Position numbers and translations under genes: made by a program. Source: a bacterium HR11 (lineage in GTDB: Bacteria; Acidobacteriota; HRBIN11). Taken from it: 64,000 bases of DNA. Positions within the stretch are counted from its first letter, which is position 1. Each line of letters begins with the position of its first letter. The notes beneath the pieces were generated by a model. The model saw only the letters and a program-made list of their open reading frames with translations. It had not been told where the DNA came from and made no database searches. This document shows positions 283 through 62,303 of this stretch, piece by piece. The DNA lies in contig BEHN01000017.1 in assembly GCA_002898535.1 (NCBI GenBank), forward strand, positions 1 to 64,000, read 5' to 3'.

Positions 283-666
283 GGGGTGCCGGCTCCGATT
301 TTTTACCCTATTTTTGCAGAAGGTCGGGAAAAGTCCAGTCTGCCCAGCATCCGCCATTCGCCACTCGCTACTCGCCATTCGCTACTTATGTGCCATGAAA
401 TTCCATAAAATCCATCGGAAAGCCACAATAAGGTCAGCTGTTGCCAACCCCCTCCAAGACCCAAGACCCCAGACTATGGACCACAGACCCTGGACCATAG
501 ACCCCCCTGGGCCCAAGCAGGTCTATGGTCTGTGGTCTATAGTCTGTGGTCGGATTGATGAGATTCGCTTGTACTATTGTACTATGGCGAGCGGGGTCGT
601 CCGCCTCAAGGATGGAGAACGCCCCCACCCCGTAGACTACAGCCTGTCGTCCGGGGTCCGGGGCCT
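283..666. repeat. Intergenic stretch with two short tandem repeat families
   Basis: No gene is supported here. An AT-rich patch at 297-316 precedes the tnpB start. Positions 351-385 carry GCGAATG-type heptamers read on the minus strand (CCATTCG, CCACTCG, CTACTCG). Positions 471-553 carry GACCNNN heptamers, a GGGCCC-containing centre, then GGTCNNN heptamers, so the transcript could fold into a long hairpin just downstream of trxB. Confidence 0.75.
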
Positions 667-1620
667 TTACCCTGACCCGAGACCCGGCGCCTTTCCCTCG
701 TGTTCTAACGCCTCTAAGTAGCGCTCGGCCTCGATGGCGGCCATACAGCCCATCCCGGCCGCCGTGATGGCCTGTCGATAGATATAGTCGACGACGTCCC
801 CGGCGGCGAAGACCCCCGGTCGATTCGTCCGGAGGCGGTGGTCGACGACGATGTAGCCCCGATCGTCCAGCTCGACCTGACCCCGGAACAAGTCCGTATT
901 CGGGATATGCCCGATGGCGACAAACAGTCCGTCCAGGGGGAACTCCCGCCGTTCACCGGTCTGCGTGTCCCGGAGGGTCACCCCCGTGATGCCCCGGGAA
1001 GGTTCACCGTGGACGGCCTCGACGACCGTATTCCAGAGGAAGGCGATCTTGGGGTTCCGGAAGGCCCGGTCCTGCATAATCTTACTGGCCCGGAGCTTGT
1101 CCCGCCGATGGATCACGTAGACCCGGGCGGCAAAGCGGGTCAGAAAGAGGGCTTCCTCGATGGCCGAGTCGCCGCCCCCGACGACGCCGACGACCTGGTC
1201 CCGGAAAAAGGCCCCGTCGCAGGTCGCGCACGTCGAGACGCCCCGACCGAGCCATTCCCGCTCGCCGGGGACCTCCAACATGCGGGCCCGGGCGCCCGTG
1301 GCGATGATGACCGTCTTGGCCTCGACCCACGTCGAGCCGACCTGGACCCGGTAGGGCCACGTCGAGAAGTCGACGGCCGTGGCGTCCTTCTGGAGGATTT
1401 CAGCCCCGAATCGCTCGGCCTGCTGGCGCATCCGCTCCATCAGTTCGGGTCCCTGGATACCCTCCGGGAAGCCCGGGAAGTTCTCGACCTCGGTCGTCAG
1501 CATGAGCTGGCCCCCGGCCTGATAGCCGGCGATGACCAGGGGTTCGAGTAGGGCCCGGGCCGTGTAGATGGCGGCCGTGTAGCCGGCCGGACCCGAGCCG
1601 ATGATGACCACGTTCCGCAT
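667..1620 (-). CDS. trxB: Thioredoxin-disulfide reductase
   Basis: This 317-residue flavoprotein matches low-molecular-weight thioredoxin reductase, which passes electrons from NADPH through FAD and a redox disulfide to thioredoxin in the cytoplasm. The FAD-binding GSGPAG motif is at residues 8-13. The redox pair is CATC at 131-134, followed by DGAFF, and the NADPH-domain motif is VVGGGDSAIEEA. Near the C-terminus is FAAGDVVD, the usual second FAD contact. I chose ATG 1620 because GGAGGA lies just upstream and the protein then begins MRNVVIIGSG as the family does. An upstream start at 1653 would add 11 residues without family support. The gene stands alone between repeat-rich gaps. Confidence 0.96.
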   Translation of the reverse strand: MRNVVIIGSGPAGYTAAIYTARALLEPLVIAGYQAGGQLMLTTEVENFPGFPEGIQGPELMERMRQQAERFGAEILQKDATAVDFSTWPYRVQVGSTWVEAKTVIIATGARARMLEVPGEREWLGRGVSTCATCDGAFFRDQVVGVVGGGDSAIEEALFLTRFAARVYVIHRRDKLRASKIMQDRAFRNPKIAFLWNTVVEAVHGEPSRGITGVTLRDTQTGERREFPLDGLFVAIGHIPNTDLFRGQVELDDRGYIVVDHRLRTNRPGVFAAGDVVDYIYRQAITAAGMGCMAAIEAERYLEALEHEGKAPGLGSG

Positions 1621-2093
1621 GAAGGTCCTCCACGCGCCCGGTGGGCTTGTCATTTTCAGAAAGGGCAGGTGGGCAGGTCGGCCGATAGACCCCCTGGCTG
1701 ATGGCTCATATTAGCTCACGGGTCATGGCTCACAGACCATGAGCCATCCGCCATGAGCTATGAGCCAATAGGGGCCATGAGCCATCAGCTATGAGCCATG
1801 AGCCGATGTGACCCATGGGCTCACCCCACTGGGACCCGGACCTTCTTGAAAAATCGGGCTTTTCGGGCGATGGGCAAGGCCGATCAGACGCTATCCTCAC
1901 GAACCAGAGGGCTCCGATATAAGAGACGCCGACGCCCCCAAAGGTTACATCCCCCGGCCGGCGACGTCCAGAGCGCCCGGCCCCTGAAATTGGCACGGCG
2001 TCCGATTTGGGATATAATGAAATATCCGCACCCCGGGACCCATAGGGGGTAGGGGCCCTCGTTCGGCCCGCCGGCCCCCGAGGTTCCTTCCCT
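1621..2093. repeat. Intergenic region with GAGC heptamers, a ~70-bp dispersed module and a promoter
   Basis: No coding gene is supported. Positions 1695-1809 hold GAGCYAT heptamers in both orientations (GAGCCAT, GAGCTAT, ATGGCTC). Positions 1845-1915 hold a minus-strand copy of the dispersed module ending in the equivalent of TTTTTCAAG. The promoter of the permease gene lies at 1990-2018. Confidence 0.75.
1990..2018 (+). promoter_or_regulatory. Sigma-70-type promoter for the KimA-like permease
   Basis: TTGGCA at 1990-1995 and a perfect TATAAT at 2013-2018 are separated by 17 bp. The predicted transcript starts near 2025, about 70 nt before the permease ATG at 2094. I could not recognise a known riboswitch in this short leader. 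Confidence 0.75.
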
Positions 2094-4091
2094 ATGAACG
2101 AAGACCAGGCTTCTCTGACCGAGCGTCTCAAGCGCATCGTCCTCGGCGCGGCCCGGAAGCCCACGGAGCCGGGCGTCTTCCACAAGGTCTCCCTCGTCGC
2201 CTTCCTGGCCTGGGTGGGTCTGGGCTCCGATGGGATCTCGTCGGTGAACTATGGTCCCCAGGAGGCCTTCCTGGCCTTGCAGGGGCATACTTACTTGGCC
2301 GTCTTCCTGGCGGCCATGACAGCCCTGACTGTCTTCGTCATCAGCGCCAGCTACACCCAGATCATCGAGCTGTTCCCCTCCGGCGGCGGTGGCTATACAG
2401 TCGTCAGCAAACTCCTATCACCCACGCTGGGGATGGTCGCCGGCTGTGCGTTGGTCATCGACTATATCCTGACGATCACCGTCTCTGTAGCCAGCGGGGC
2501 CGATGCCATCTTCAGTTTTTTGCCCCTGGAGTGGCACCGCTACAAGTTGCCCTTTGCTTTTGTCGTCCTATTCTTCTTAACGGTCTTGAACCTGCGGGGG
2601 GTCCGGGAGTCGGTCCTCCCCCTCGTCCCCATCTTCATCCTGTTTGTTTCCCTTCACGCTCTGGCCATCCTATACGGCTTGATATCCCATGGCACGGCCC
2701 TACCCGAGCTTTTCCGGCAGACTTCGCAAGAACTCCGGGCTTCGACCGTCGAGATGGGGACCCTGGGGGTCTTACTCCTGCTCCTTCACGCTTACAGCCT
2801 GGGCGGGGGGACGTATACGGGTATCGAGGCCGTCAGTAACGCCCTACCCGTCCTTCGCGAACCCCGGGTCGAAACGGCCAAGCGGACGATGCTATATATG
2901 GCCGTCAGCCTGGCCTTTATCGCGGGGGGCCTCATCTTAGCCTATTTGCTCTTCGACATTCGACCCCAGCCGGGGAAGACCCTGAATGCCGCCTTGTTCG
3001 AAAGAGTGGCCTCAGAGGTCTTCGGTGACGGTCGAATCTTCGTCATCACGGCCCTGGTGACGGCGGCCCTCATCCTGTTTGTCGCCGCTCAAACGGGGTT
3101 CCTGGGTGGTCCTCGGGTCTTGGCCAATATGGCCCTGGACGGGTGGATGCCGACCCGCTTCGCCCTGCTCAGCGACCGCCTGGTCACCCAGAACGGCGTC
3201 CTTCTCATGAGCGGCGTGTCCTTGATCCTGATGTGGATCTCGCGGGGCTCGGTGTCGTTCCTGGTCGTACTTTACAGCATCAACGTGTTTCTGACCTTTA
3301 CACTGTCCCAACTCGGGATGGTCAAGCACTGGTGGGAAGTCCGTCATCGGGAGCCGGCCTGGTTTCAAAAGATTACGATTAATGGATTGGGCTTCTTACT
3401 TACGTCGTTCATCCTGATGACGACGGTCATCGTCAAGTTCCACGAGGGCGGGTGGCTGACCCTGGCCGTCACGACCTCCCTGATCGCGCTGGCGACCCTC
3501 ATCCACCGCCACTACGCCCGCACGCGGCGGCTTCTCCAACGACTGGACGCCCTCCTGACGGCCGCCCTGCCGGCCCATCCCGACCATACGGTCCCCGCGC
3601 CGGCGGCGCCCAACGCCCACGGCTGGGACGTCACGACGGAGAACACGGCCGTCATCCTCGTGAACGGCTTCAACGGCCTGGGCCTTCATACGCTGTTCAC
3701 GGTCCTGCGGCTCTTCCGGGGTCACTTCAAGAACTTCGTCTTCCTCCAGGTCGGCGTCATCGACGCCGGTCGGTTTAAAGGGATCGAGGAAATTGAAAAC
3801 CTGCGCCGGGCTGTCTCAGAGGACCTGAATCGCTACGTCGAGCTCATGCGGGCCTACGGCTACCACGCCGAGAGCGTCTATGCCCTGGGCATCGACGTCG
3901 TCGACGAGGTCGAGAAGCTGGCCCTTCAGACCGTCGAACGCTTCCCCCACAGCGTCCTGTTCGCCGGCCAACTGGTGTTTCCCCGGGAGTCGATGGTCAC
4001 CCGCATCCTGCACAACTACACGTCCTTCGCGATTCAACGGCGTCTCTACCATCGGGGCATCCCCGTCTTGATCTTGCCGGTCCGGGTGTAA
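2094..4091 (+). CDS. APC-superfamily permease, KimA-like, with a C-terminal cytosolic domain
   Basis: This 665-residue protein starts at ATG 2094, with GAGG about 10 nt upstream. About twelve hydrophobic segments span roughly residues 30-460. The first carries LGSDGISSVNYGPQEAF, which resembles the GLSSDALSSVAYG region of KimA-type APC potassium importers. FPSGGGGYTVVSKLL is a typical APC helix-1/2 region. Residues about 515-665 are soluble and alpha/beta (TAVILVNGFNGLG, then VLFAGQLVFPRES and PVLILPVRV), like the USP-like domain of KimA homologues. Transport of K+ is an inference from family likeness. Amino-acid transport is the alternative. Confidence 0.78.
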   Translation: MNEDQASLTERLKRIVLGAARKPTEPGVFHKVSLVAFLAWVGLGSDGISSVNYGPQEAFLALQGHTYLAVFLAAMTALTVFVISASYTQIIELFPSGGGGYTVVSKLLSPTLGMVAGCALVIDYILTITVSVASGADAIFSFLPLEWHRYKLPFAFVVLFFLTVLNLRGVRESVLPLVPIFILFVSLHALAILYGLISHGTALPELFRQTSQELRASTVEMGTLGVLLLLLHAYSLGGGTYTGIEAVSNALPVLREPRVETAKRTMLYMAVSLAFIAGGLILAYLLFDIRPQPGKTLNAALFERVASEVFGDGRIFVITALVTAALILFVAAQTGFLGGPRVLANMALDGWMPTRFALLSDRLVTQNGVLLMSGVSLILMWISRGSVSFLVVLYSINVFLTFTLSQLGMVKHWWEVRHREPAWFQKITINGLGFLLTSFILMTTVIVKFHEGGWLTLAVTTSLIALATLIHRHYARTRRLLQRLDALLTAALPAHPDHTVPAPAAPNAHGWDVTTENTAVILVNGFNGLGLHTLFTVLRLFRGHFKNFVFLQVGVIDAGRFKGIEEIENLRRAVSEDLNRYVELMRAYGYHAESVYALGIDVVDEVEKLALQTVERFPHSVLFAGQLVFPRESMVTRILHNYTSFAIQRRLYHRGIPVLILPVRV

Positions 4092-4106
4092 GGGCGGGCT
4101 CGCGGC

Positions 4107-4172
4107 TTATATCGGCTCATCGCTCATGGGGAGGAGCGAGGACCCGGGCCATCCGCTATAAGCCATGAGCTA
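4107..4172. repeat. GAGCYAT heptamer block
   Basis: Degenerate heptamers in both orientations (CGGCTCA, CGCTCAT, then AAGCCATGAGCTAT) fill the gap after the permease. They match the repeats at 1695-1809, 11988-12122 and 19261-19363. Confidence 0.65.
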
Positions 4173-4249
4173 TCTTTATTCCTGACATATCGATTTACGA
4201 TTCGAAATCTTGCCAATCCTCTTTGACGCCCGAGCCCGTGGGTAGAAGC

Positions 4250-4435
4250 ATGGCGGTATGGCTGTATTATGCAGGACGATTCCTGGAGGCGGTCGCCTTG
4301 GGTCTTCTACTGTATGCCCTGCTGTATGGGCTGACGACAGGGGACCTGCGGTCGGAACTCCGCCTCTTCGGGGTCGGGGTCCTGCTCTTTTTAGTCGGCC
4401 GAGGCCTGGAACGATGGGGGAGCCGTGGGGCATAA
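4250..4435 (+). CDS. Small hydrophobic membrane protein, unknown function
   Basis: This open frame encodes about 61 residues from ATG 4250, with an alternative TTG start at 4223 that would add nine. Two hydrophobic segments (LYYAGRFLEAVALGLLLYALL and FGVGVLLFLVGRGLERW) are joined by a short polar loop, giving a two-helix membrane hairpin. It ends with TAA 48 nt before the B12-binding subunit and is on the same strand, so the two may be co-transcribed. No clear ribosome-binding site was found. I do not recognise a family. Confidence 0.5.
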   Translation: MAVWLYYAGRFLEAVALGLLLYALLYGLTTGDLRSELRLFGVGVLLFLVGRGLERWGSRGA

Positions 4436-4447
4436 TTAAGGTGGGAA

Positions 4448-4477
4448 GGAGCGCAGACGTCCCCGTCTGCAGGGAGG
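4448..4477 (+). repeat. Hairpin abutting the ribosome-binding site of the B12-binding subunit
   Basis: GCAGACG (4453-4459), a TCCC loop and CGTCTGC (4464-4470) form a 7-bp stem. It ends directly before AGGGAGG (4471-4477), the ribosome-binding site for ATG 4484. A related GGAGCGCAG/GGGGACGTCTGC sequence recurs at 54939-54968, so this is a dispersed repeat that may affect translation. Confidence 0.55.
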
Positions 4478-4483
4478 TCGGCG

Positions 4484-4918
4484 ATGCGGAAGATTCGGGT
4501 CCTTATCGCCAAGCCGGGTCTGGACGGGCATGACCGGGGGGCCAAGGTCATCGCTCGGGCCCTCCGGGACGCCGGCATGGAGGTCATCTACACGGGTCTC
4601 CGGAAGACGCCCGAACAGGTCGTCCATGCGGCTCTCCAAGAGGACGTCGACGTGATCGGGATCAGCGTCCTGTCGGGGGCCCACATGGCCATCGTTCCCC
4701 GGATCATGAAGCTCTTGGAGGAGCAGGGGGCCACCGACGTCGTCGTCATCGTCGGGGGCATCATCCCGCCGATGGACATCCCCAAACTGAAGGCCCTGGG
4801 GGTCGACGAGGTCTTCGTGCCCGGCTCCTCCCTGGACGAAATCGTCGCCTTCATCCGGGAGCGGGTCGCCCAGAAGCGGGCCCACGTGGTTCCGGAGACC
4901 ATCGACCGGGGACCATAG
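4484..4918 (+). CDS. Cobalamin-binding small subunit of methylmalonyl-CoA mutase type
   Basis: The 144-residue protein is a free-standing B12-binding domain. LDGHDRG at about residues 13-19 is the DxHxxG motif whose His replaces dimethylbenzimidazole as the lower cobalt ligand. [11 protein letters not shown] and [11 protein letters not shown] are the other conserved strands and loops of the fold. The length fits the small subunit of split acyl-CoA mutases, where a separate large subunit carries the TIM barrel. That partner is not in the window. The last codons (PETIDRGP, then TAG) are made of GACCNNN heptamer repeat, so the natural C-terminus may have been replaced. SD AGGGAGG supports ATG 4484. 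Confidence 0.9.
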
Positions 4919-5080
4919 ACTACGGACCATCGACTATGGACCATAGACCATAGACCATAGACCATCGACTACGGACCACAGACCGAGGAGGTCCCCCGTG
5001 GCCCCAGTCAGGTCTATAGTCGGGGGTCCATAGTCGATGGTCCATGGTCTGTGGTCTATGGTCGGGGGTCCGTGGTCCAT
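4911..5080. repeat. Long GACCNNN/GGTCNNN heptamer palindrome between convergent genes
   Basis: About ten GACCNNN heptamers (GACCATA, GACTACG, GACCATC and similar) lead into a centre containing GGCCCCAG. Then come heptamers of the opposite strand (GGTCTAT, GGTCCAT, GGTCTGT). The two arms are reverse-complementary over tens of bases. The element covers the 3' ends of both flanking convergent genes and provides the TAG stop of each. Confidence 0.85.
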
Positions 5081-6693
5081 TCCCGGGGGCGGACGGTCTG
5101 CTGGCGGAAGACGAGACGTTGGACGCCGACGTACAGCCCCCAGAAAATCCCGACGGCCGGGAGGATGAAGCCCCCGAGGTGGACAAAGCGAGCGCTCATC
5201 GGGCCGCCATAGGGATAGGGCCATAGACGTCCGATGAGGACCAGCCAGGCGGCCATCCCGCCGATCCCGACGGCCGTCGCCACGAACCCGGGCCTCAGGA
5301 TCCACCCGGTGAGCCATCCGAACCGCCGCTGGAACAAACCCAGCAGGACCGCCATCTGGGTCCATCCGGCGACGGCGCTACTCATGGCGATGCCCGTCAC
5401 GCCGTACCGGGGCGTCAGGACGGTCAGACTCAGGGCATAGACCAGCATCGAGAGGGCGGCGACCCGGACCGGCGTCCACAGGTCCTTGACGGCGTAAAAA
5501 CCCGGCACGAGGACCTTATTGAGGCTGTAGGCCGGCGTCGCCAGGGCGTACCAGGCTAAGGCCCCGGCCGACAGGAGGCGGGACTCGACGTTAAAGCGGC
5601 CATATTCAAAGAGGGCGTGGACGATGGGCGCGCTCAGCCATGCCAAGCCGACGGCCGCCGCCAGGTTCCAGGCCAGGACCCACACGACGCCCTCCGTCAC
5701 CGAGGCTCGAAACCGGAGCCAGTCGCCCCGGGCCGCCAGGTCCGAAAGGTGGGGCAGGAGGACCGTCGAAAAGGCCACGGCGATCATCCCAATGGTCAGC
5801 TCCTGCACGCGGCTCGCGTAGGTCAGCGCCGCCACAGCGCCCTGCCCAAGGGTCGAGGCGTAACTCTGCCCGATGGCCATGTTGATTTGGGCAATCCCGA
5901 CGGCAAAGAAGCCGGGTCCCATCAGGCGGAAAACCTCCCGCAGGCCCGGATGTCGGAAGTCCAGCCGCCATGCCGGCGTAAAACCGAGCCGCCGCAGGAC
6001 CGGCCACTGGACGGCCCACTGCAGGAATCCGCCCGTCACGACGCCGAGGGCGAAGACCAGCGACGGATACCGGACCCGGTGGGCCCACGCCAGGACGATG
6101 CCGATCATGGCGACGTTGAACAGGACCGGGGCGGCGGCCGGCCATACAAAGCGCCGGTGCGCATTCAGGACGGCCGTCGTCAGGGCCGCCATCGAGATGA
6201 ACAGGATGAAGGGAAACATCAGACGGTTCAGCTCGACCGTCCATGCGTACTTCCACGGAAACGCCCGAAACCCCGGGGCAATCAGGCGGACCAGGGCCGG
6301 CGAGAGGAATTCCCCGAGGGCGACGACCAAAAGGAGCACGACCAGCAGGTCGTTCATGCATATCCGGACGAGGTGCCAGCGGTCCTCCTCCGGGTGCTCG
6401 ACCCGCCAGCGGGCGTAAACGGGGATGAAGGCGGCCGTCAGGGCGCCTTCCCCGAGGAGCCGTCGGAGCATGTTGGGGATGATGAAGGCGATGTCGAAGG
6501 CGTCCGCCTCGTGGGTCGTCCCCAGGTAGCGGGCCTTCAACTGCTCCCGGACGAAGCCCGTCAAGCGGCTCAGCCCCGTCATCAAGGTAATCCCCAGGGC
6601 CGTCCATTGGAGACTCCGGGATTGCAGACGGAGCCACCGGTAGACCGTCGAGAATGGACGCGAGACGACCGTCGACGGAACGGACTTTCCCAT
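5056..6693 (-). CDS. murJ: MurJ/MviN-family lipid II flippase
   Basis: A polytopic membrane protein of about 545 residues, with many hydrophobic helices, matches MurJ, which moves lipid II across the inner membrane for peptidoglycan synthesis. Diagnostic stretches are GLSRLTGFVREQL and the nearby ADAFDIAFIIPNMLRRLLGEGALTAAFIPVY region (residues about 45-90). I chose ATG 6693, which has GGAGGT upstream and gives MGKSVPST. The longer frame reaching 6783 reads back into a duplicated ccmF tail and is not credible. The last residues (EWTTDPRP, then TAG) are encoded by GACCNNN heptamers. It follows ccmF and the toxin-antitoxin insertion on the same strand. Confidence 0.94.
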   Translation of the reverse strand: MGKSVPSTVVSRPFSTVYRWLRLQSRSLQWTALGITLMTGLSRLTGFVREQLKARYLGTTHEADAFDIAFIIPNMLRRLLGEGALTAAFIPVYARWRVEHPEEDRWHLVRICMNDLLVVLLLVVALGEFLSPALVRLIAPGFRAFPWKYAWTVELNRLMFPFILFISMAALTTAVLNAHRRFVWPAAAPVLFNVAMIGIVLAWAHRVRYPSLVFALGVVTGGFLQWAVQWPVLRRLGFTPAWRLDFRHPGLREVFRLMGPGFFAVGIAQINMAIGQSYASTLGQGAVAALTYASRVQELTIGMIAVAFSTVLLPHLSDLAARGDWLRFRASVTEGVVWVLAWNLAAAVGLAWLSAPIVHALFEYGRFNVESRLLSAGALAWYALATPAYSLNKVLVPGFYAVKDLWTPVRVAALSMLVYALSLTVLTPRYGVTGIAMSSAVAGWTQMAVLLGLFQRRFGWLTGWILRPGFVATAVGIGGMAAWLVLIGRLWPYPYGGPMSARFVHLGGFILPAVGIFWGLYVGVQRLVFRQQTVRPREWTTDPRP

Positions 6694-6730
6694 CGGGGTG
6701 GAGACCTCCGGAGTCGGCCGGCGGGTCAGC

Positions 6731-6793
6731 CTCAGGGCCGGGCGGCGGCCGCCTGCGGGGCCAGCATGTATGCCGGCTCCCACCGAGGATTCA
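6731..6793. repeat. 63-bp direct repeat, copy 1 (duplicated ccmF 3' end)
   Basis: This stretch matches 7680-7742 with a single mismatch over 63 bp. That second copy is the genuine last 20 codons and stop of ccmF. Copy 1 lies on the far side of the toxin-antitoxin pair, 37 bp from the murJ start, and has no ccmF body attached. Confidence 0.92.
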
Positions 6794-6807
6794 CCGGGAT
6801 GATGAGT

Positions 6808-7257
6808 TCATTCTCCTGCCAGCCGGAGTACTTCCTGTTTCAGTTGAGGGCTCATACGAAAACCCGCAACCTCCATGTCTTCCAAAATAGGCCGGACAGC
6901 ACCGAGCAAACCTGCACGTTTCGCCCGCACCAAGATACCGGCTGTGCCGATGAGCCGAATGCCCAATCGCTTGGCCCAAGTGCGAGCCTTACGGTCGTCT
7001 AAAATGAGCAAATACTGTCGTTCGATGGCCAAAGCGATCGCTTCCGCCTCGCCTTCCCCCATGATGAGACGCAACACATTCACCAAAGCCGTATTAGATG
7101 GGGCCTGCACTTGCAACCACTCGGGCTGGGAACTGAACTCATCCCGTACGGTCGGAGAAGCCAGTAGCGGATGAAATAACGCGGGCAAAAGCTCTAATTG
7201 ATCGACTCGTTCCAGTACAATCAGACACGAGCTATCCGTGACAGCGGGTTCTTTCAC
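6808..7257 (-). CDS. DUF3368 / PIN-like toxin of a toxin-antitoxin pair
   Basis: This 149-residue protein begins MKEPAVTDSSCLIVLERV, with an early Asp in the place of the first PIN-domain acidic residue. EGEAEAIALAI and ILDDRKAR in the middle match the DUF3368 pattern of VapC-like RNases. Its ATG overlaps the stop of the upstream 72-codon gene by four bases (ATGA), so translation is coupled. The partner is a UPF0175 protein, the usual antitoxin of DUF3368 toxins. Base composition is visibly less GC-rich than the flanking genes. With the flanking 63-bp duplication, this suggests recent acquisition. RNase activity is inferred from the family. Confidence 0.85.
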   Translation of the reverse strand: MKEPAVTDSSCLIVLERVDQLELLPALFHPLLASPTVRDEFSSQPEWLQVQAPSNTALVNVLRLIMGEGEAEAIALAIERQYLLILDDRKARTWAKRLGIRLIGTAGILVRAKRAGLLGAVRPILEDMEVAGFRMSPQLKQEVLRLAGE

Positions 7258-7472
7258 TCCGTGACCTCTTCCTGGAGTTCTTCGGGGGAGTAAGCAATGA
7301 CCGGAACGCCGTAATGCCCTAACAGTTCCATGAAGGCACGTTTAGAGTAACCCGCCCACCGGGCGGCCTGCCCTAAGGTAAGTTTGCCCACTTCATACAA
7401 CTTGACTGCCAGCATGAGTCGGGCTTCCTCCTCATCGACTTCGGGCGGGAGTTCTAACAGAAGGGTCTTCAT
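7254..7472 (-). CDS. UPF0175-family antitoxin
   Basis: The 72-residue protein MKTLLLELPPEVDEEEAR, followed by LTLGQAARWAGYSKRAFMELLGHYGVP, has the N-terminal strand and helix-turn-helix-like centre of UPF0175 proteins. These are encoded next to DUF3368 PIN-like proteins and are thought to neutralise them and bind DNA. ATG 7472 is preceded by CAGGAG. Its stop overlaps the toxin start. The pair sits between ccmF and murJ in the same orientation and probably inserted there. Confidence 0.87.
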   Translation of the reverse strand: MKTLLLELPPEVDEEEARLMLAVKLYEVGKLTLGQAARWAGYSKRAFMELLGHYGVPVIAYSPEELQEEVTE

Positions 7473-7679
7473 GGTAAGCTCCTGTTCCCTTTTGAATGAG
7501 TTTCAGGCTCAAGACTCATGACAGAACGGCTCACCTCGACGAAAGGGGCCCGCGGGATAGATTCGGGACCCCTCGGAGAACACGATTTTACAGGCAAAGT
7601 GACGACGTGACGACGTCGCCGGTCCCCCCGGCAGAATCGACCTCTCCACGGCTACGGAGCGTCGGGCGGTGGGGTTCGT

Positions 7680-7742
7680 CTCAGGGCCGGGCGACGGCCG
7701 CCTGCGGGGCCAGCATGTATGCCGGCTCCCACCGAGGATTCA
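7680..7742. repeat. 63-bp direct repeat, copy 2 (authentic ccmF 3' end)
   Basis: This includes the ccmF stop codon (7681-7683) and its last 20 codons. It matches 6731-6793 with one mismatch, bracketing the toxin-antitoxin genes in direct orientation. Confidence 0.92.
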
Positions 7743-9699
7743 TGACGATGACGCCCCCGACGAGCATCAGCCAGCCCCCGACCCAGAACCAGATGACCAG
7801 GGGGTTATAGTACATCTCCAGGGTCGCCCCCTGGTTCTCGTCCCACGCCCCCAGGACGAGATAGACGTCGCCCCGCCACGTCGAGTAGATGGCCACGTTT
7901 GTGACGGGCTGGTCGGCGTTGGGATGGAATTCCCGGCCGGGGGCCAAGCGGGTCACGACCCGGTCGCCCCGTTGAAGGACGACGGAGGCCGTGACGAGGT
8001 CCTTGTGGGGGAAGCGCTGGAGACGAAGGCCCTCGTATTTCAGCGTGTAGCCCTGCAGATGGGCCGTGTCGCCGGGCCGAAGGAACACCTCCCGCTTGAC
8101 CTGGTAGAAGGCCGAGCCGACGATGCCGAAGAACAGCAGGACGACGCCCAGGTGGACGATATAACCGCCGTAGCGACGGGGGTGTTTCACGAAGAGCTTC
8201 CCAAAGGCCGTCCAGACGGGCTCACTGTACATCCGGCGTCGGGCCCGGACGCCCCGGTAAAACTCGAGGGCCGTCGTGGCCAGGACCAGGACGCCGGCCC
8301 CCACAAAGGCCAGGGGGAGAGGCTCCCGCAGGCCGAGGGCGAATAGGACCGATGCCGCGACCAGTGTAAAGACCGACGGCAGGAGGAGGTTCCGCTCAAA
8401 GTTCGTCCACGTCGCCCGCCGCCAGGCGATCAGCGGGCAGATCCCCGTGAGGATCAGGAGGGCCAGGCCCAGGGGGGCCGTGACCTGATTGAAGAAGGGC
8501 GCCGCCACGGTGATCCGATGCCCCTTCACCAGGTCCGACACGAGGGGGAAGAGCGTTCCCCACAGGACCGCAAAGCAGATGCCCGTCAGGAGCAGGTTGT
8601 TGAACAGAAAACTGCTCTCCTTCGACAGGACGGCCTCGATCCGCTGGGCGCTCCGGATGACCGGCCATCGGATATACAGGAGGGCCAGGCCATAAAAGAG
8701 GATGAAGCTCAAGAAGACGATGAAGTAGTCCCCGATAGGCGAGACGGCGAAGGCATGGACCGACGAGAGGATCCCGCTCCGGGTGATGAACGTCCCCAGG
8801 ACCGACAGCAGGAACGTCGCCATGATCAGCGTGATGTTCCAGGCCCGGAGCATGTTCTTCTTTTCCTGGACCATGATGGAATGCAAATAGGCCGTCGAGA
8901 GGAGCCAGGGCATCAGGGAGGCGTTCTCGACGGGGTCCCACGCCCAGTAGCCGCCCCAGCCGAGCTCCTGGTAGGCCCACCGGCTCCCGATGAGGATCCC
9001 CGCCGTCAGGAAGAACCAGGGCACGAGCGCCCACCGACGGACGGCGACCAGCCACTCCAGGTTCATCCGGCCCGTGACGAGGGCGGCGACGGCAAAGGCG
9101 AAGGGGACCGTGAAACCGACGTAACCGAGGTACAAGTTAGGCGGATGGATGGCCATCAACGGTCGCTGGAGGATGGGATTCAACCCCCGGCCCTCACCGA
9201 CGGCTTCCGGGACGGGCGTGAAGGGGTTCGCCGCAAACAAGATCGTCGTCAGAAAAAAGAGCTGGACCAGGGCCAGCGTCGCGCTCACGTAGGGGAGCCA
9301 CAGGCGTCGCCGGTGGCGGTTTTGAAGCAAGACCAAGGCCGTGTACAGGCTCAGGATCCAGACCCAGAACAGGAGTGACCCCTCCTGCCCGCCCCAGAGG
9401 GCCGCCAGGGCGTACAGGCGGGGGATCTTACTGGACGAATGCTGAACGATATATGCCAGGTCGAAGTTGTTCGTATACAACGCCTGCCATAGGAGGAAGA
9501 CGGCCATCGACAGGACCAAGGTGGTCGCCCCCAGGGCGTGTTCCCCCGAGCGGACCCAGGGCTCCCGACGCCGGAGGCCTCCCCAGACGCTGGCCGCCAT
9601 CGCGTAAAGCGCCATCAGCCAGGCCCCAGCCAGGAGAATTGTCCCGACAAACGCCACCGGGTATTGGGAAGGGTCGTAATGGATCCACGGAAAGTGCAT
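7681..9699 (-). CDS. ccmF: Cytochrome c maturation heme lyase CcmF
   Basis: This 672-residue membrane protein carries the tryptophan-rich WGGYWAWDPVENASLMPW signature of the heme-handling CcmF/CcmC/CcsA family. It has about fifteen hydrophobic segments and a periplasmic segment near residues 560-640. Length agrees with CcmF, which attaches heme delivered by CcmE to apocytochrome c. Its start at 9699 follows the ccmE gene by about 175 nt on the same strand, with a GACCNNN palindrome in between. No ccmA-D or ccmH is present in the window. Given the Cys-type CcmE next door, this is probably the variant System I. Confidence 0.95.
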   Translation of the reverse strand: MHFPWIHYDPSQYPVAFVGTILLAGAWLMALYAMAASVWGGLRRREPWVRSGEHALGATTLVLSMAVFLLWQALYTNNFDLAYIVQHSSSKIPRLYALAALWGGQEGSLLFWVWILSLYTALVLLQNRHRRRLWLPYVSATLALVQLFFLTTILFAANPFTPVPEAVGEGRGLNPILQRPLMAIHPPNLYLGYVGFTVPFAFAVAALVTGRMNLEWLVAVRRWALVPWFFLTAGILIGSRWAYQELGWGGYWAWDPVENASLMPWLLSTAYLHSIMVQEKKNMLRAWNITLIMATFLLSVLGTFITRSGILSSVHAFAVSPIGDYFIVFLSFILFYGLALLYIRWPVIRSAQRIEAVLSKESSFLFNNLLLTGICFAVLWGTLFPLVSDLVKGHRITVAAPFFNQVTAPLGLALLILTGICPLIAWRRATWTNFERNLLLPSVFTLVAASVLFALGLREPLPLAFVGAGVLVLATTALEFYRGVRARRRMYSEPVWTAFGKLFVKHPRRYGGYIVHLGVVLLFFGIVGSAFYQVKREVFLRPGDTAHLQGYTLKYEGLRLQRFPHKDLVTASVVLQRGDRVVTRLAPGREFHPNADQPVTNVAIYSTWRGDVYLVLGAWDENQGATLEMYYNPLVIWFWVGGWLMLVGGVIVMNPRWEPAYMLAPQAAVARP

Positions 9700-9756
9700 G
9701 ATCTACTCCTGCTTCCGGTCTCCTTGGCTTTCCTCAGGCCGCAGACCATTCAATCC

Positions 9757-9859
9757 GACCATAGACCACAGACCATGGACCTCAGACCGTAGACCGGCTT
9801 GGGCCCCGGGGGTCTATGGTCTGTGGTCCATGGTCTGTGGTCTGTGGTCTATGGTCTGT
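9757..9859. repeat. GACCNNN/GGTCNNN palindrome between ccmE and ccmF
   Basis: Heptamers GACCATA, GACCACA, GACCATG, GACCTCA and GACCGTA lead to the core GGCTTGGGCCC. They are followed by GGTCTAT, GGTCTGT, GGTCCAT, GGTCTGT, GGTCTGT and GGTCTAT. The RNA could form a stem of 30 bp or more inside the probable ccmE-ccmF transcript. Confidence 0.88.
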
Positions 9860-9874
9860 AGCCGATGTTCTTTT

Positions 9875-10282
9875 TCACGGCCGGCCCGCATCGGCCTGAT
9901 ACTTCGACGGACACTTGGTCAGCAGGCGGGTCGCCTCGATGTGATTCCGGCGGGCGTCGTACCGGCCCTCGACGACGACCTCGATGCCGTCCTTGAACAT
10001 GTCGGATACCACGCCCTCGTAGTGGACCGTCACCCGCCGCTGGCCGTCCGTGACGGCAAAGTCGTATACCAGCCGCTGGGGGGCCTTGCGGATAGAGCCG
10101 GGCTCGACCCGCGCATTGATGCGAACGCCCTTGCCGTCGACCTCGGCGGCCATCCGTTCGAGCTCGTCCAGATGCAGGTAGTACTGTTGCTGGCCCCGCA
10201 TCCCGGAAAAGACCAGGTAGCCGATGAGCAAAATCCCGAGACTCAGGGCTCCGATGACGATCTCGCGCGCTCGCAGACGCAT
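9875..10282 (-). CDS. ccmE: Cytochrome c maturation heme chaperone CcmE, Cys-type variant
   Basis: The 135-residue protein has one N-terminal membrane anchor (IVIGALSLGILLIGYLVF) and the OB-fold body of CcmE. That body includes VRINARVEPGSI, VTVHYEGVVSDMFKDG and VVVEGRYD, ending in ATRLLTKCPSKY. Classical CcmE binds heme covalently through the His of an HxxxY motif. Here residues 124-128 read CPSKY, so Cys replaces His. A CxxxY form is known from archaea and some bacteria with a variant cytochrome c System I. ATG 10282 lies 71 nt after citrate synthase on the same strand, and ccmF follows. Confidence 0.93.
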   Translation of the reverse strand: MRLRAREIVIGALSLGILLIGYLVFSGMRGQQQYYLHLDELERMAAEVDGKGVRINARVEPGSIRKAPQRLVYDFAVTDGQRRVTVHYEGVVSDMFKDGIEVVVEGRYDARRNHIEATRLLTKCPSKYQADAGRP

Positions 10283-10353
10283 GAGTGTCCCTCCGGTTCA
10301 TCCGGCCGTCCGGACGCTCGGCCACTCGGCCGGTGGGCCCGACAGCCGCATTC

Positions 10354-11643: not shown

Positions 11644-11683
11644 TTGGTTCCCTCCTCCCGACTGTCTGTAGCGCTCCGGTATT

Positions 11684-11713
11684 AGTATATGCCGCTCGAA
11701 TTTTCGATGTCAG
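11684..11713 (-). promoter_or_regulatory. Sigma-70-type promoter for gltA
   Basis: Read on the minus strand, CTGACA (11713-11708) and TATACT (11689-11684) are separated by 18 bp. The predicted start lies about 35 nt before the gltA ATG at 11643. Confidence 0.65.
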
Positions 11714-11720
11714 GTCTTCT

Positions 11721-12416
11721 AAGACCACAGGACCATAGACCGTAGACCCATAGAACATAGCCACTCGGGAGGTGAAAAGTGCGATGGGGAGCGGAAAGGG
11801 TACCTCCACGAGAGCATGATGTTTCAAGCATTCGGCAGGTGGGCAGTCGGCAGATAGGCAGATGGGCAGGTGGGCCGTCGGCCCAAGACCGTGGCTCGCC
11901 ACTTCGTTACTTCGGCGAATGGCGAAATGGCGAGTAGCGAGTGGCGAATGGCGAGTATGGGGCGGTCCCCGGGGCGGTGTCCTGTGGCTGATGGCTCGTA
12001 TTAGCTCATGGGTCATAGCTCATGGCCCCTATTGGCTCATAGCTCATAGCTGATAGCTCATGGGACCATGAGCCATGAGCTATGAGCCATGAGCCAATAC
12101 GAGCTATCAGCCATGAGCCGATAGAGGCCGTGCCCGGCGCCTGCCTGTCGCGACAGCGGCGCAGGCAGGTCGGGGATAGGTCGGGCGGCCAGGCGGCTTC
12201 TTCATGGGGAGAAAGCCGTCCTGCGTCGGACCGAAAAAGGTTGGGTCGTGGAGGCCGACCCCGGGGGCCTGGTGGCCCTGCAAGGCCTCCCGACGAGGCC
12301 GAAATCCAAGCCTTCCGTGGTCCGGGAATCAAAGACCATGGAAGGTGAAACGGTTCTCGCCATCCTTACAAGACGGGGCGACCCCCTGGTCCAGTCAGGT
12401 CCATGGTCTGTGGTCC
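11721..12416. repeat. Repeat-filled intergenic region upstream of gltA and rsgA
   Basis: No gene is supported in this gap. Components are GACCNNN heptamers at 11721-11760, GGCAGRT-type units at 11828-11875 and GCGAATG/GCGAGTA heptamers at 11921-11956. Next come GAGCYAT heptamers in both orientations at 11988-12122, then a small inverted repeat at 12140-12170 (GCGCCTGCCTG against CAGGCAGG). From 12388 there is half of a GGTCNNN array that runs into the rsgA start. Positions 12175-12385 show nothing I recognise. Confidence 0.8.
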
Positions 12417-13349: not shown

Positions 13350-13370
13350 TAGAAGCGGTCTCATAAATCC

Positions 13371-13423: not shown

Positions 13424-13552
13424 AACCGAACGGCCCTGTCGGAAAAGCTATTGACGATAGAGTTAGGAAAAGGCTAATCTGTGCACATTGAGGGTAGCCG
13501 ATGGAGGGGGATCGTAGGGAGACCGACACCCGAGGCGGGTCCGTGGGGTGTG

Positions 13553-51017: not shown

Positions 51018-51150
51018 ATGACGAACGGCGAATCGCGAGGGGTGAACGGCGAATAGCGAACGGCGGATAATATCTCCCCATGGGCCATTCGCTACTCGCC
51101 GTTCGCTTTTCTCGAGGGACCGGACTGCCGAATTCCCGAGTCGCTGAATG
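51018..51150. repeat. GCGAATG heptamer palindrome and GAATTCCC octamers
   Basis: Units GCGAATC, GCGAATA and GCGAACG, then after about 20 bp the complementary CCATTCG, CTACTCG and CCGTTCG (51080-51105). CCGAATTCCCGAGTCGC follows at 51127-51145, just before the NtrC-type regulator. Confidence 0.8.
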
Positions 51151-51158: not shown

Positions 51159-52571
51159 ATGGCCGAACCCCGCGGCCTCGTGTTCGTCCTGGACGACGAG
51201 CCCGACATCGTCGAGGCGCTGACCGAAGTCCTGGAAGACGAGGGCTACGCCTGCCGGTCGGCCCGAGACCCCCTGGCGGCCCTGGCTCAGCTCGAGCAGG
51301 AGGAGCCCGACGTCGTCCTCCTGGACCTGCGGCTTCCCCAGATGGACGGGCGGGAGGTCTTCCAGCGGCTTCGACGTCGCTATCCGGACCTGCCCGTCGT
51401 CATCATCACGGCCCACGGCGACATCCCGACGGCCGTCGAGTTCATCCGCCAGGGCGCCTTCGAGTTCCTCGAAAAGCCCCTCCACCGGGAACGGGTCCTG
51501 ACGGCCGTCCGCAACGCCGTCGAGCAGTACCGCCTGAAGCGGGCTCAGGCCTGGCTCCAGCACTGGGCGGCACCGCCACGCCTGCTCGGCCACAGTCCGG
51601 CCATCGAGCGTCTGCGGGAGGAGATCGAGCGGGCCGCCCGGACCGACGCGACCGTCCTCATCGTCGGGGAATCGGGAAGCGGCAAGGAACTCGTCGCCTG
51701 GGAGATCCACCACCGGTCCCCCCGTCGGAACCAGCCCTTCGTGCGGGTCAACTGTGCGGCCATCCCGAAGGAGCTCATCGAGAGCGAGCTCTTCGGCCAC
51801 AAAAAGGGCGCCTTCACGGGCGCCATCTCGGACTACCGGGGGAAGTTCGAGCAGGCCGACGGCGGCTCGATCTTCCTGGACGAAATCGGAGACATGAGCC
51901 TGGAGGCGCAGGCGAAGGTCCTGCGGGTCCTGGAGACGGGGGAGATCGAACCCATCGGGGCCGGTCAGTCCCGGTTCGTCCGGGTGCGGGTCATCGCGGC
52001 CACGAATCAGGACCTGGCCGCCCGTATCCGTCAGGGCCTCTTTCGGGAGGACCTGTACTATCGTCTCACGGTCCTGGTCATCCGGGTCCCCCCCTTACGG
52101 GAGCACCGGGAGGACATCCCCGAACTGGTCGAGTGGTTTTCTGAGCAGTACGCTCGCCGGAACGGCCTGCCGGCGGTCCGGTGGTCGCCGGAGGCCCTGG
52201 AGCGGCTGAAGGCGTATGCCTGGCCGGGCAACGTGCGGGAACTCCGGAATTTCGTCGAGCACTGCCTGACGCTCCATAGCCGGCCGGAGATCACGGGCGC
52301 CGACGTCGAGGCCTACCTGACGGACATTCGCCGCCGGGTCGGCGGGCTCCCGGCGGAGGTCCCGACGGTCCGTCCCGGGGGGGTCCCCGTCGAGCCGGAG
52401 GGTCCGCTCCACGCCTTTATCGAGCGGGTCGAGAAGTGGTACATTCAAAGGGTTTTAGAGCAGACGGGGGGCAACGTGGCGGAGGCGGCCCGACGGCTCC
52501 AGATCCCGCGGAGCAACCTTTACAAGAAGATGGAAAAGTACGATATTAAGATCCGGAAGGACGTGGAGTAG
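51159..52571 (+). CDS. Sigma-54-dependent response regulator (NtrC family)
   Basis: The 470-residue regulator has a receiver domain (FVLDDEPDIVEAL; phosphoacceptor in VVLLDLRLP, about residue 56; IITAHGD; EKPLH). The AAA+ domain has Walker A GESGSGKEL, the sigma-54 contact GAFTGA, DGGSIFLDEIGDM, RVIAATNQDL and WPGNVRELRN. The C-terminal Fis-type helix-turn-helix is VAEAARRLQIPRSNLYKKM. NtrX/AtoC-like. No histidine kinase is adjacent. ATG 51159 lacks a strong SD. The last four codons lie within the P1 helix of RNase P RNA. Confidence 0.95.
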   Translation: MAEPRGLVFVLDDEPDIVEALTEVLEDEGYACRSARDPLAALAQLEQEEPDVVLLDLRLPQMDGREVFQRLRRRYPDLPVVIITAHGDIPTAVEFIRQGAFEFLEKPLHRERVLTAVRNAVEQYRLKRAQAWLQHWAAPPRLLGHSPAIERLREEIERAARTDATVLIVGESGSGKELVAWEIHHRSPRRNQPFVRVNCAAIPKELIESELFGHKKGAFTGAISDYRGKFEQADGGSIFLDEIGDMSLEAQAKVLRVLETGEIEPIGAGQSRFVRVRVIAATNQDLAARIRQGLFREDLYYRLTVLVIRVPPLREHREDIPELVEWFSEQYARRNGLPAVRWSPEALERLKAYAWPGNVRELRNFVEHCLTLHSRPEITGADVEAYLTDIRRRVGGLPAEVPTVRPGGVPVEPEGPLHAFIERVEKWYIQRVLEQTGGNVAEAARRLQIPRSNLYKKMEKYDIKIRKDVE

Positions 52572-52937
52572 GTGCGACCGTCGCTCCGGCCATCGGCCGG
52601 GGAGGAAAGTCCGGACTCCACAGGGCCGCATGGTTCCGTAAAGGAACCGGGGGCAACCCCAGGGAAAGTGCCACAGAGAACAGACCGCCGGACTCCCCCT
52701 CAAAATGGGGGTCCGGTAAGGGTGAAACGGTGGGGTAAGAGCCCACCGCTCGCCGGGTGACCGGTCGAGGCACGGCAAACCCCATGCGGAGCAAGGCCGA
52801 ATAGGGACGCCCCGGAGGGTGGCCCGTCCGAAGACCGCCTGCGGGCGGTCGGGCGTCCGGGTAGGCCGCTGAGATGAATGACGGTCCGCGTCCGACCGGG
52901 CGCGAACAGAATCCGGCTTACGGCCTGCTCCACGTCC
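52559..52937 (+). ncRNA. rnpB: RNase P RNA (class A)
   Basis: Conserved blocks are present in order: GAGGAAAGTCCGGACTCCAC (52602-52621, P4 5' strand/J-region), AGGGTGAAACGGTGGGGTAAG with GAGCCCACCGC, GGCAAACCCCATGCGGAGCAAGGCCGAATAGG, and GGTAGGCCGCTGAG. The 3' element ACAGAATCCGGCTTACGGCC carries the P4 3' strand. P1 is a perfect 14-bp helix (with one G-U) between 52559-52572 and 52924-52937. It is the catalytic subunit that trims pre-tRNA 5' ends. The 5' strand of P1 overlaps the end of the NtrC-type gene. Exact mature ends are inferred from P1. Confidence 0.97.
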
Positions 52938-54811: not shown

Positions 54812-55125
54812 ATCCCGTCCTCGCCCCCTATTGTACAGGACGGCGAGATAGGGAGGTAGGTAGATGGGCAGTCGGCAGGTGGGCAGGTCGGCAGATAGGG
54901 AAGAAGTAGGGGCAGGCCTTGTGCCCGCCCCCGAAATAGGGAGCGCAGGCGGGGACGTCTGCGCTCCCGCAGGCCAGAGGCCTGCACTCCCTCCCACCCC
55001 CCTATCTGCCGACCTGCGTATCTGCCGACTTGCCGACCTGCCTATCTCTCCAAATCCTACTTGTATCTTGCATCCTGCATCTTGTATCTTGGAGAGAGGA
55101 TTCATCCCAGCCCGGAGGTCGGACG
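54812..55125. repeat. GGCAGRT palindrome and GGAGCGCAG hairpin
   Basis: GGCAGTC, GGCAGGT and GGCAGAT units (54865-54900) are mirrored by CTGCCGACCTG and CTGCCGACTTG units (55015-55048). Inside lies GGGAGCGCAG (54939-54948) with CTGCGCTCCC (54959-54968), a 10-bp stem. TTGTATCTTGCATCCTGCATC-like units follow at 55062-55092. Confidence 0.82.
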
Positions 55126-60285: not shown

Positions 60286-60313
60286 GGAAATTGCGAATTG
60301 CGGATTGCGAATT

Positions 60314-62299
60314 GTGAATGAGCAGGGCCGTTCGGTTCGGGAGAAGGGCATTCGCATCCTGTATCCCGTACGCCGCATCGTTTCACACCCAGGCCTTAAT
60401 TCGCAATTCGCAGTTTTTCTCTTGCTGGGGACCATCCTTAGCCTGGCCTCGTCGGCCCCGCCCGACTGGGACCTGACGGTCGAGGTCTGGACCTGCGAGA
60501 CGGCTCTGCCCTCGGGGGTCCCCGTCTGGTGGGCCCGCCAGCCCAGCGCGGCTCGACCCGTCGTCGAGTTCCTGCGGCTCAACGGCCTCCCGTCGGACGT
60601 CCGCTGGCTGGACCGGCCCGGCCACCGGTCCGTCGGTCGTCGGGGCCTGGCCTGGCTGGCCTGCCCGGCCTCGGCGCTGTCCGATGGCGTCGTCCGGGAG
60701 CTTCGGGAGGCCGTCCGGGCGGGTACGACGCTGGTCACTACGGCCGACGCCTGGGACGCCCGTCTGGCGGACGTCTACGGCGTTCGTGTCGAAGCCCCCC
60801 GATTTACTGTCCGGTCGGTCGTCTTCCGGCCCCCCGACGGGACGGACGCCTCGGAAGTCCCGATCCGGCCCCGTCGGGCGCGCCGGGTCGTCGTCACCGA
60901 CCCGGCCGGCGTCGAGGTCTGGGCCACGGCGGGTCGGCCGGCCCGGCCCCTGATCGTGCGCCATCCGTATGGGGACGGGGCCGCCGTCCTCATCGGGTTC
61001 CCGGCCGACGAGCTTTGGTCCGTCCGGCCGGACCGCTTGGACGGGTGGGTCTTTCGATACCTGACGGCCTGGCTCCCGGTCGCCGTGGCGGCGCCCCTGC
61101 GGCACACGGCCGTCTTGCGGATGGACGACCCCCAGACGTCCTCGAAGATCTGGAACACGGAAGCGCCGCCTCGCTATCAGACCCGTTATGCGGGCCTGAC
61201 GGCGGCCGAGTGGATGGAAATCGGTCGTCTGGTCGAGGCCCACCAGGCCCGGCTGAGCGTCATGTACGTGAGCGGCTTCGTCGACGACGGCGACGGTCGG
61301 GCCGGCACGCTCTACCTCCGGGGTCGGCCCGTCACCGATCGGACGTGCGGCCGCATCTACGACGTCCGGGACGTGACCTACCGGTTGGGCGACCGGGTCT
61401 ACGACTTTTCGGCCGAGTTCCAAGCCCTGCGGGACCTGGTCGCCCGGGACGTCGTGGACATCGAGTCCCACGGCTACATCCACACGACGCCCTTTTTACA
61501 GGAATGGTGCCGGGACCCCCAGCGGCCCCGACGGTTTCTATGGATATCTGAATTTTTCGACCTTTATATGAAGCGACCGGTTCCCGAGGCGACCCAGCAG
61601 GCGCATCTCCAGGCCAGCATCGACCGCATCCGCCGGTGGTTTGGACGGGCACCCGTGGCCTTCAGTCCCCCGATGCACGCCTACGACGCGGCGACGCCCG
61701 TGATCGCCCAGCGGCTGGGCCTGGCCGTCATGCACGCCCAGACGCTGTTCGACCTGACCCGGACGCCGATCCTGGAGACCGCTCGCCTGATCGTCCATTG
61801 GGCCCACCTGCCTTACGTGGAGGACCCGGACCTCGACGAGTCGGGCTACCCTGTCGTCATCGGCCTACACGAGTGGGACCTCCGGACGCACGTGCCGCCG
61901 ATCCGGTGGATCCATCATCAGATCGCCTTCTTTCAGCATCGGGGGTACCGACGCATCATCTCATTTCGGGAGCTGGCCGGATACCTGGGCGCTCGCGTGC
62001 AGGCCCGGTATCGGCGAGAGTCGGACCGGGAAGAGGTCGTCCTGTCGGTCCGCATCGACCGAACGGGCGGGCCCGGCGGTCCGGAAAGCCGCTTCTTTTC
62101 GAATCACTCCATGCGGTGGACGCTCTACGCCCCCGGCCGGGCCGTCCTGCGTGTCGTCGATGGCCGGGGCCGAAGCCTAAACTACTATATAGATGCGCCG
62201 GGCGTCTTCACCGTTGAATTCCCGCCCTTCGGCTCGCAGTCGGAGCAGACGATGACCGTCGTCTTGGGCAGGTCGGCAGACGGGCAGGCGGGCGGATAA
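60314..62299 (+). CDS. Exported protein with a polysaccharide-deacetylase-like domain
   Basis: The frame (about 661 residues from GTG 60314) has a hydrophobic signal FAVFLLLGTILSLASSA near residues 36-52. A first domain (to about 260) resembles a glutamine-amidotransferase-like or surface fold (ADEL). Then RHTAVLRMDDPQTSSKIW, DIESHGYIHTTPF and FSPPMHAYDAATP recall NodB-type deacetylase blocks. The C-terminal beta domain ends TVEFPPFGSQSEQTM. The N-terminus carries GCGAATT-type heptamers and a dispersed-module fragment. The C-terminus (LGRSADGQAGG) is encoded by GGCAGRT repeats. Start and ends are therefore uncertain. Substrate unknown. Confidence 0.68.
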   Translation: MNEQGRSVREKGIRILYPVRRIVSHPGLNSQFAVFLLLGTILSLASSAPPDWDLTVEVWTCETALPSGVPVWWARQPSAARPVVEFLRLNGLPSDVRWLDRPGHRSVGRRGLAWLACPASALSDGVVRELREAVRAGTTLVTTADAWDARLADVYGVRVEAPRFTVRSVVFRPPDGTDASEVPIRPRRARRVVVTDPAGVEVWATAGRPARPLIVRHPYGDGAAVLIGFPADELWSVRPDRLDGWVFRYLTAWLPVAVAAPLRHTAVLRMDDPQTSSKIWNTEAPPRYQTRYAGLTAAEWMEIGRLVEAHQARLSVMYVSGFVDDGDGRAGTLYLRGRPVTDRTCGRIYDVRDVTYRLGDRVYDFSAEFQALRDLVARDVVDIESHGYIHTTPFLQEWCRDPQRPRRFLWISEFFDLYMKRPVPEATQQAHLQASIDRIRRWFGRAPVAFSPPMHAYDAATPVIAQRLGLAVMHAQTLFDLTRTPILETARLIVHWAHLPYVEDPDLDESGYPVVIGLHEWDLRTHVPPIRWIHHQIAFFQHRGYRRIISFRELAGYLGARVQARYRRESDREEVVLSVRIDRTGGPGGPESRFFSNHSMRWTLYAPGRAVLRVVDGRGRSLNYYIDAPGVFTVEFPPFGSQSEQTMTVVLGRSADGQAGG

Positions 62300-62303
62300 G
62301 CAG
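62263..62303. repeat. GGCAGRT units at the end of the deacetylase-like gene
   Basis: Units GGCAGGTC, GGCAGAC, GGGCAGGC and GGGCGG encode the last eleven residues and run into the gap before selB. Confidence 0.75.

Follow-up and report, generated by a model that had tools for sequence, protein, structure and literature searches.

Heptamer and Octamer Foldback Arrays, Partly Carried by Transposon-Like Elements, in the Intergenic DNA of Bacterium HR11

Introduction

What are the tandem repeats of 7-8 nt, often palindromic, that recur in the gaps between genes of bacterium HR11 (GTDB lineage Bacteria; Acidobacteriota; HRBIN11), and how did they get there? They were first noticed along contig BEHN01000017.1 of assembly GCA_002898535.1, in a stretch of 64,000 nucleotides (positions 1 to 64,000, forward strand) that we refer to as the window. 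An excess of heptamers in bacteria had been noted before, although no cause for it has been accepted.

The window is contig C17 of the genome (G000; 2.99 Mb in 49 contigs) and was studied together with 380 kb of another contig of the same genome (C1). This 444 kb sample, ca. 15% of G000, provides all counts given below unless another source is named. Genes were called with a simple codon-usage gene finder, which is approximate (85% coding), leaving 282 gaps with a total of 66,830 intergenic bases. The comparison genomes include two sisters of the same genus, G001 and G002, both fragmented assemblies; the flanking genes of G001 are about 93% identical to those of G000. Repeat copies are related to each other, so the p-values that bear on function are optimistic.

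Results

Intergenic Arrays of Period 7 and 8

The intergenic arrays are genuine, and chance is excluded as their source. Tandem segments appeared 53 times at period 7 and 45 times at period 8 in the 282 gaps (shuffled sequences gave 0-0.3), and none was found there at periods 3-6, 9-11, or 13. Intergenic bases were autocorrelated most strongly at a lag of 7 (z = 27) and of 8 (z = 23), and again at the multiples 14, 16, 21, and 24, while coding DNA displayed the codon period only. Across the whole genome, GACYAYNGACYAYNGACYAY had 387 matches vs. 0 for its mirrored control. At least ten unit families live side by side in this one genome, bearing out the preliminary description, which had reported several independent families. 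The frequent units of period 7 are GACCAYR, GAGCYAT, AGGATGC, AATGRGG, and AATGGCG, and those of period 8 are GGCAGRTV, GAATTCGG/GAGTTCGG, GGCAGTTC, and AGTGACGR. Units change mainly at fixed positions, the four bases of the GACC core being conserved at 100/100/100/91%. Neither of the published heptamers TAACTGA and GGGAATC was among the unit tallies of the sample arrays.

The six unit families named in the preliminary description are all present in the window, although what it had grouped as 7-8 nt units can now be divided into period 8 (GGCAGRT, GAATTCGG, and GTGACGRA) and period 7 (GACCAYR, GAGCYAT, and GCGAATG). Its six inverted GACC arrays were likewise recovered where it had placed them; five contain GGCTTGGGCCC as it had said, but the one at 4911-5080 lacks it. 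Two of its statements went too far: no array is found at the end of the span that it had extended to 62303, and the gaps are not "built from" repeats, given that strict arrays make up 3,855 of the 66,830 intergenic bases and occur in 69 of the 282 gaps. It had also overlooked that about half of the arrays are inside larger repeated elements.

Arrays as Hairpins

The arrays are imperfect runs of their units, as a rule in two inverted arms with a loop between them. A search for long-stem intergenic hairpins, made without reference to periodicity, returned 51 of them, and in 50 the best arm period was 7 or 8. Gaps with arrays had a median fold z of -4.6 (n = 48) compared to -1.0 for those without (n = 170). 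In the window, the computed RNA folds of the elements range from z = -5 to -11, very stable hairpins that agree with the long RNA stems foreseen from the sequence, with a single unremarkable exception (the octamer hairpin at 36512-36607, z = -0.85).

Within a GACC hairpin, an arm matches its own partner no better than it matches the arms of foreign loci (p = 0.70 and p = 0.33 in two tests; arms were defined without using pairing, and samples for non-GACC families are small). Since own arms are no more complementary than foreign ones, the stem is upheld by the family consensus rather than by locus-specific compensation, and this null result fits arms that resize and mutate independently. An apparent signal of compensatory pairing between GACC arms had arisen from picking the arms by their pairing and was rejected on retest.

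Turnover Between Sister Species

Arrays are gained, lost, and swapped for other families very fast between the sister species. Among 61 orthologous gaps of G000 and G001, arrays are found only in G000 in 12, only in G001 in 9, in both in 14, and in neither in 26. By our reading of the unit lists, the family differs in 8 of the 14 gaps with arrays in both species. Where both have a hairpin, five of eight orthologous gaps use different unit families. The presence of hairpins across orthologous gaps is weakly associated, with a borderline p = 0.06. Change by whole units can be seen at C1:325436, where the array is shared and the loop conserved, and the species differ in a single arm, by the deletion of two units (14 bp).

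Array density per 100 kb (period 7/period 8) is 11/10 in G000 and 17/10 in G001, falls to 0/1 in G002, and is 6/0 and 0/0 in two relatives of the same class. A distant member of the phylum, G052, reached 23/8, a value from a small sample picked for its GACYAY pattern. This genome (8.4 Mb; L024, L253, and L254) has 950 matches to GACYAYNGACYAYNGACYAY, mostly long GACTACT runs.

MITE-Like Carriers

The non-array context of 53 of the 104 array loci is repeated elsewhere in the sample, and 42 loci have a unique context. The main carrier, MITE-A (from miniature inverted-repeat transposable element), has inverted ends AGAGCCGTTCGGTTCGTGA (end sequence CAGAGCCGTTCGGTTCGTGA...) and a typical length of about 256 bp. 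Its ends number 343 copies in G000, 158 in G001, and 2 in G002, and none was found in three other relatives searched. Exact 4-bp target duplications flank 7 of the 15 paired MITE-A copies (1.6 expected), a result that applies to MITE-A only, and there are no duplications of 5 bp or more at these 15 copies. A second family, MITE-B, combines the centre GGCTTGGGCCC with ends around CTCATMAATCCGAC. The sister species lacks three carrier insertions of the window (19218-19483, 33195-33399, and 23168-23316), i.e., these sites are polymorphic (empty in the relative). The carriers have several marks of MITEs, with terminal inverted repeats (TIRs) in many copies, no coding capacity, target duplication (MITE-A), and empty sites in relatives.

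The arrays in MITE-A interiors are of several families. At C1:41260 and C1:45214, both species have MITE-A-type sequence in the gap but not the same array family. The preliminary description had found neither origin nor spreading mechanism evident; this can be improved on, as there is a transposon-like carrier for many arrays, along with rapid replacement in orthologous gaps.

Two further repeats were observed. Runs of short GC-rich palindromes of the type ACACCGCCATGACGGGCGGTGT lie in or beside MITE-A (C1:195158-195896, C1:233072-233429, and window 19490-19668) and form another repeat family. Another dispersed element has nested TGTTGGG and GACC arms round a conserved loop with CGTCTCGAGACGGGGTATTCCGATGACTC (C1:325436-325620, C1:351631-351752, and the matched G001 loci).

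The array-bearing features of the window are listed below, with the strand where one was assigned.

458-553: GACCAYR heptamer foldback of seven units, centre GGGCCCAAGC, and five inverted units, with a MITE-B-like end GGTCGGATTGATGAG.
1691-1920: GAGCYAT heptamer foldback, then a degenerate MITE-A right end.
4897-5080: GACC foldback, the longest of the window (13 + 10 units), between convergent genes and without GGCTTGGGCCC; RNA fold z = -9.2 (4911-5060).
9757-9859: GACC foldback (RNA fold z = -11.4) with the MITE-B centre GGCTTGGGCCC; in the sister species this gap has a GACC hairpin too, shorter and with a different loop.
11754-12119: composite gap with a MITE-A half end, GGCAGRTV octamers, GCGAATG heptamers (11914-11954), and a GAGCYAT foldback (11985-12113, z = -10.6); another family in the sister species.
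12380-12440, minus strand: GGTCYRT heptamer array, five units in one orientation.
13371-13423: short GACC foldback, centre GGGCCCAAGC, 3 + 3 units.
19218-19483: MITE-A copy CAGAGCCGTTCGG...CCGAACGGCTCTG with CTAA duplicated at its flanks, carrying GAGCYAT and GTGACGAA arrays; site empty in the sister species.
23168-23316: complete MITE-B, GGAAGCGCTTGCATCAATCCGACC ... GGCTTGGGCCC ... GTCGGATTGATGAGGCTGGTTCT, with GACC arms; missing from the gap of the sister species.
25880-26023: GAATTCGG/GAGTTCGG octamer foldback that fills its gap; missing from the gap of the sister species.
28215-28401, plus strand: GACC heptamer array (28215-28253) and GAATTCGG octamer array (28340-28401).
33195-33399: MITE-A-like insertion with AAGTGACG and GCCCAACT octamers; missing in the sister species.
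36518-36588: GAATTCGG octamer foldback between two co-directional genes; the same gap (36513-36606) holds a TGTTGGG/CCCAACA heptamer foldback in G001.
38710-39089: MITE-A left end with GAATTCGG octamers, then CCCTCCGT octamers.
44123-44470: GAGCYAT foldback (44123-44188), then a MITE-A copy (44213-44471) that contains a GGCAGRTV octamer foldback (44290-44394).
47651-47735: GACC foldback, centre GGCTTGGGCCC.
51044-51104: GCGAATA/GCGAACG heptamer foldback.
54838-55091: GGCAGRTV octamer foldback (stem 54870-55030) and CATCTTG heptamer array (55060-55091).
60289-60319, plus strand: AATTGCG heptamer array between two co-directional genes.

Apart from these, the window encodes a bacterial RNase P RNA of class A (52564-52936, plus strand; Rfam RF00010, 241.5 bits). 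All other Rfam matches were low-scoring microRNA look-alikes under the gathering scores.

Distribution Beyond the Genus

GACCATR arrays were also found in Bacteroidota, Omnitrophota, Lentisphaerota, Verrucomicrobiota, Gemmatimonadota, Planctomycetota, and others, isolates included; cultured carriers of GACCAT arrays are Dyadobacter fermentans, D. jiangsuensis, Mucilaginibacter lappiensis, and Cnuella takakiae. Near these arrays, and with GACCAT excluded, period 7 leads the tandem runs (92 vs. 17 for the next period), and an inverted GACC partner accompanies 21 of 121 of these arrays vs. 0 for the mirrored control. However, GACCAT is not a privileged word, because GACCATN was found in 8 of 396 genomes of the phylum (six outside the genus) and the mirrored control in about as many (ca. 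9), and its universality was discarded. The spread over phyla is consistent with many independent heptamer families. Carriage by viruses was rejected too, the MITE-A TIR being found in none of the viral contigs and GACCATR arrays in only one, against more than 115 stretches in genomes. Literal array strings had no bacterial match in 5.4 million papers, a weak sign that these families are undescribed.

Discussion

Replication Slippage and Fold-Back as the Probable Origin

The explanation that we favor, and to which we give somewhat better than even chances, is that the foldback arrays are made and remade by replication slippage and fold-back template switching, with MITEs spreading about half of them. 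Arrays would be born and resized by slipped-strand replication, one unit per step, and the inverted arm would be added via template switching on the folded nascent strand, after which the two arms may drift and resize independently. Capture by MITEs would then carry some families round the genome. Long hairpins may survive because the genus lacks a recognizable SbcD (a subunit of the palindrome-cutting nuclease). The arrays would be mainly a mutational, selfish by-product, and some may have come to affect transcript ends as well. Template switching at imperfect palindromes has been discussed (PMC4060949), and a passage of PMC4692102 cites a proposal linking heptamer excess to polymerase contact length.

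Several observations weigh against this explanation. Simple slippage leaves unexplained the absence of periods 5, 6, 9, and 10, and also how a single unit family comes to occupy numerous loci whose flanks and loops are unrelated. The polarity of the hairpins is fixed, the GACC arm preceding the GGTC arm in all 28 strict loci (C1 sample plus window), and this counts against independent template switching, which would not predict it. SbcD was undetected in all three genus members, and its loss can be at most permissive because G002 also lacks it and yet is almost free of arrays. As for the carriers, an autonomous transposase for the MITE ends was not found, and neither DDE_5 transposases in the genus genomes nor Y1_Tnp in G000, the two families searched, had a match. 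Two candidate TIR pairs for an autonomous MITE-A, 1.7 and 2.4 kb apart, were set aside as they enclose ordinary genes.

Outside the genus, a first count of polarity (27:1) looked absolute, but a strict recount gave a weaker 28:4 by loci and 9:2 by genomes, which is only suggestive of a polarity determined by sequence across phyla. Loss of MutS was ruled out as a cause, since MutS is present in G000 (and in G001). In G002, a fragmented assembly, MutS1 had no match.

A Possible Function of the Hairpins at Transcript Ends

A possible but doubtful alternative is that the hairpins are two-way terminators or mRNA 3'-end stabilizers under selection, in which case the fold alone would matter and families would be interchangeable. 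The much better folding of gaps with arrays and the different families at orthologous hairpins would suit this. So would the arrays found close behind a stop codon (e.g., C1:351635 and C1:140429), the richness in purines that the 5' arm of periodic hairpins shows across three data sets (p = 5e-4, 2.5e-7, and 6e-5, although copies are not independent), a modest enrichment of T 3' of the 3' arm (0.29 vs. a base frequency of 0.17), and an enrichment of A before the stem. However, arrays show no excess at stop codons (0.293 within 25 nt vs. 0.252 for random placement in the same gaps, p = 0.18; p = 0.70 for loci in unique context), and 13 of 45 divergent gaps, which have no gene end at all, carry them. 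At arrays, a scan for consensus terminators in positions 1-20000 of the window gave a single match, inside a MITE that carries them (19426-19445). The weak orthologous association of hairpins, the absence of compensatory pairing in GACC arms, and a sister species (G002) that manages without arrays also speak against selection on the fold. The role in transcript ending or stability proposed from the sequence is not established; with the purine-rich 5' arms and the downstream T enrichment in its favor, it is a possible, weakly supported prediction.

Less Probable Alternatives

We consider it unlikely that a dedicated or idiosyncratic replication or repair activity with a fixed step of 7-8 nt rewrites the foldback arrays and swaps families in the same gap, being on in G000, G001, and G052 and off in G002. 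Comparing the gene content of array-rich and array-poor relatives could reveal an activity that sets this step. Slightly less likely still is that a repeat or nucleoid protein reads the units, in DNA or RNA, at a step of 7-8 nt. The exclusive periods, the changes confined mainly to fixed positions of the unit (as around the GACC core), and the recurrence of one family at many loci would fit such a protein, but at least ten unrelated families would each demand a specificity of their own, the sister species do not have the same families, and no candidate protein was met, none having been sought.

Short, degenerate tandem units of constant step recall telomeres and would suit synthesis on a template, whether by a reverse transcriptase or by an enzyme similar to telomerase, but this is very improbable, with RVT_1 unmatched in the three genus genomes and the control search positive in Escherichia coli, Bacteroides, and Methanosarcina. 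Even harder to sustain is movement by a Y1 (HUH) transposase as in repetitive extragenic palindromic (REP) sequences and their associated tyrosine transposases (RAYTs); these are high-copy intergenic palindromes too, but Y1_Tnp had no match in G000 (control positive in 5 of 14), and tandem 7/8-mers are unlike REPs of 20-40 bp (PMC3733652). Finally, the fragmented assembly, similar to a metagenome-assembled genome, might suggest an assembly artefact, as the arrays would be if absent from independent assemblies, but the separately assembled sister genome shares some of them at orthologous sites and similar heptamer arrays occur in many phyla, including the cultured Dyadobacter, Mucilaginibacter, and Cnuella, so that we give this practically no credence.

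Comparison With Known Systems

Heptameric repeats have been described with the units TAACTGA in Beggiatoaceae, cyanobacteria, and Bacteroidetes (PMC4679880) and GGGAATC/GGGGAYT in Xanthomonas and Nostoc (PMC4692102). The resemblance to the short tandemly repeated repetitive (STRR) sequences of cyanobacteria, pointed out in the preliminary description, holds for heptameric repeats in general, including the STRR of heterocystous cyanobacteria. They share intergenic, degenerate 7-nt tandem units of patchy distribution, shifts in length and sequence between close relatives with indels in 7-nt steps, and the mixing of several heptamers, slippage being their proposed origin. Unlike them, here octamers are as common as heptamers (45 vs. 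53 arrays), at least ten families coexist, hairpins of inverted pairs make up most of the long copies, half of the loci are in a repeated and often transposon-like context, and orthologous gaps swap families. The two array-rich genomes, with their exclusive periods of 7 and 8, a periodicity tied to hairpins, family replacement, and an array-poor sister, are a sharp test bed for the cause of the heptamer excess.

REP palindromes and their mosaics (bacterial interspersed mosaic elements, BIMEs) associated with RAYTs are likewise high-copy, intergenic, and palindromic, but differ in unit structure and in the Y1 transposase, unmatched in G000. The carriers are similar to bacterial MITEs such as NEMIS, RUP, ERIC, and Nezha (PMC3733652) in their terminal inverted repeats, target duplication, lack of coding capacity, high copy number, polymorphic sites, and stable RNA folds. 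Unlike the known MITEs, however, their interiors are exchangeable foldbacks of 7/8-mers, and MITEs are hereby shown to be able to carry such arrays.

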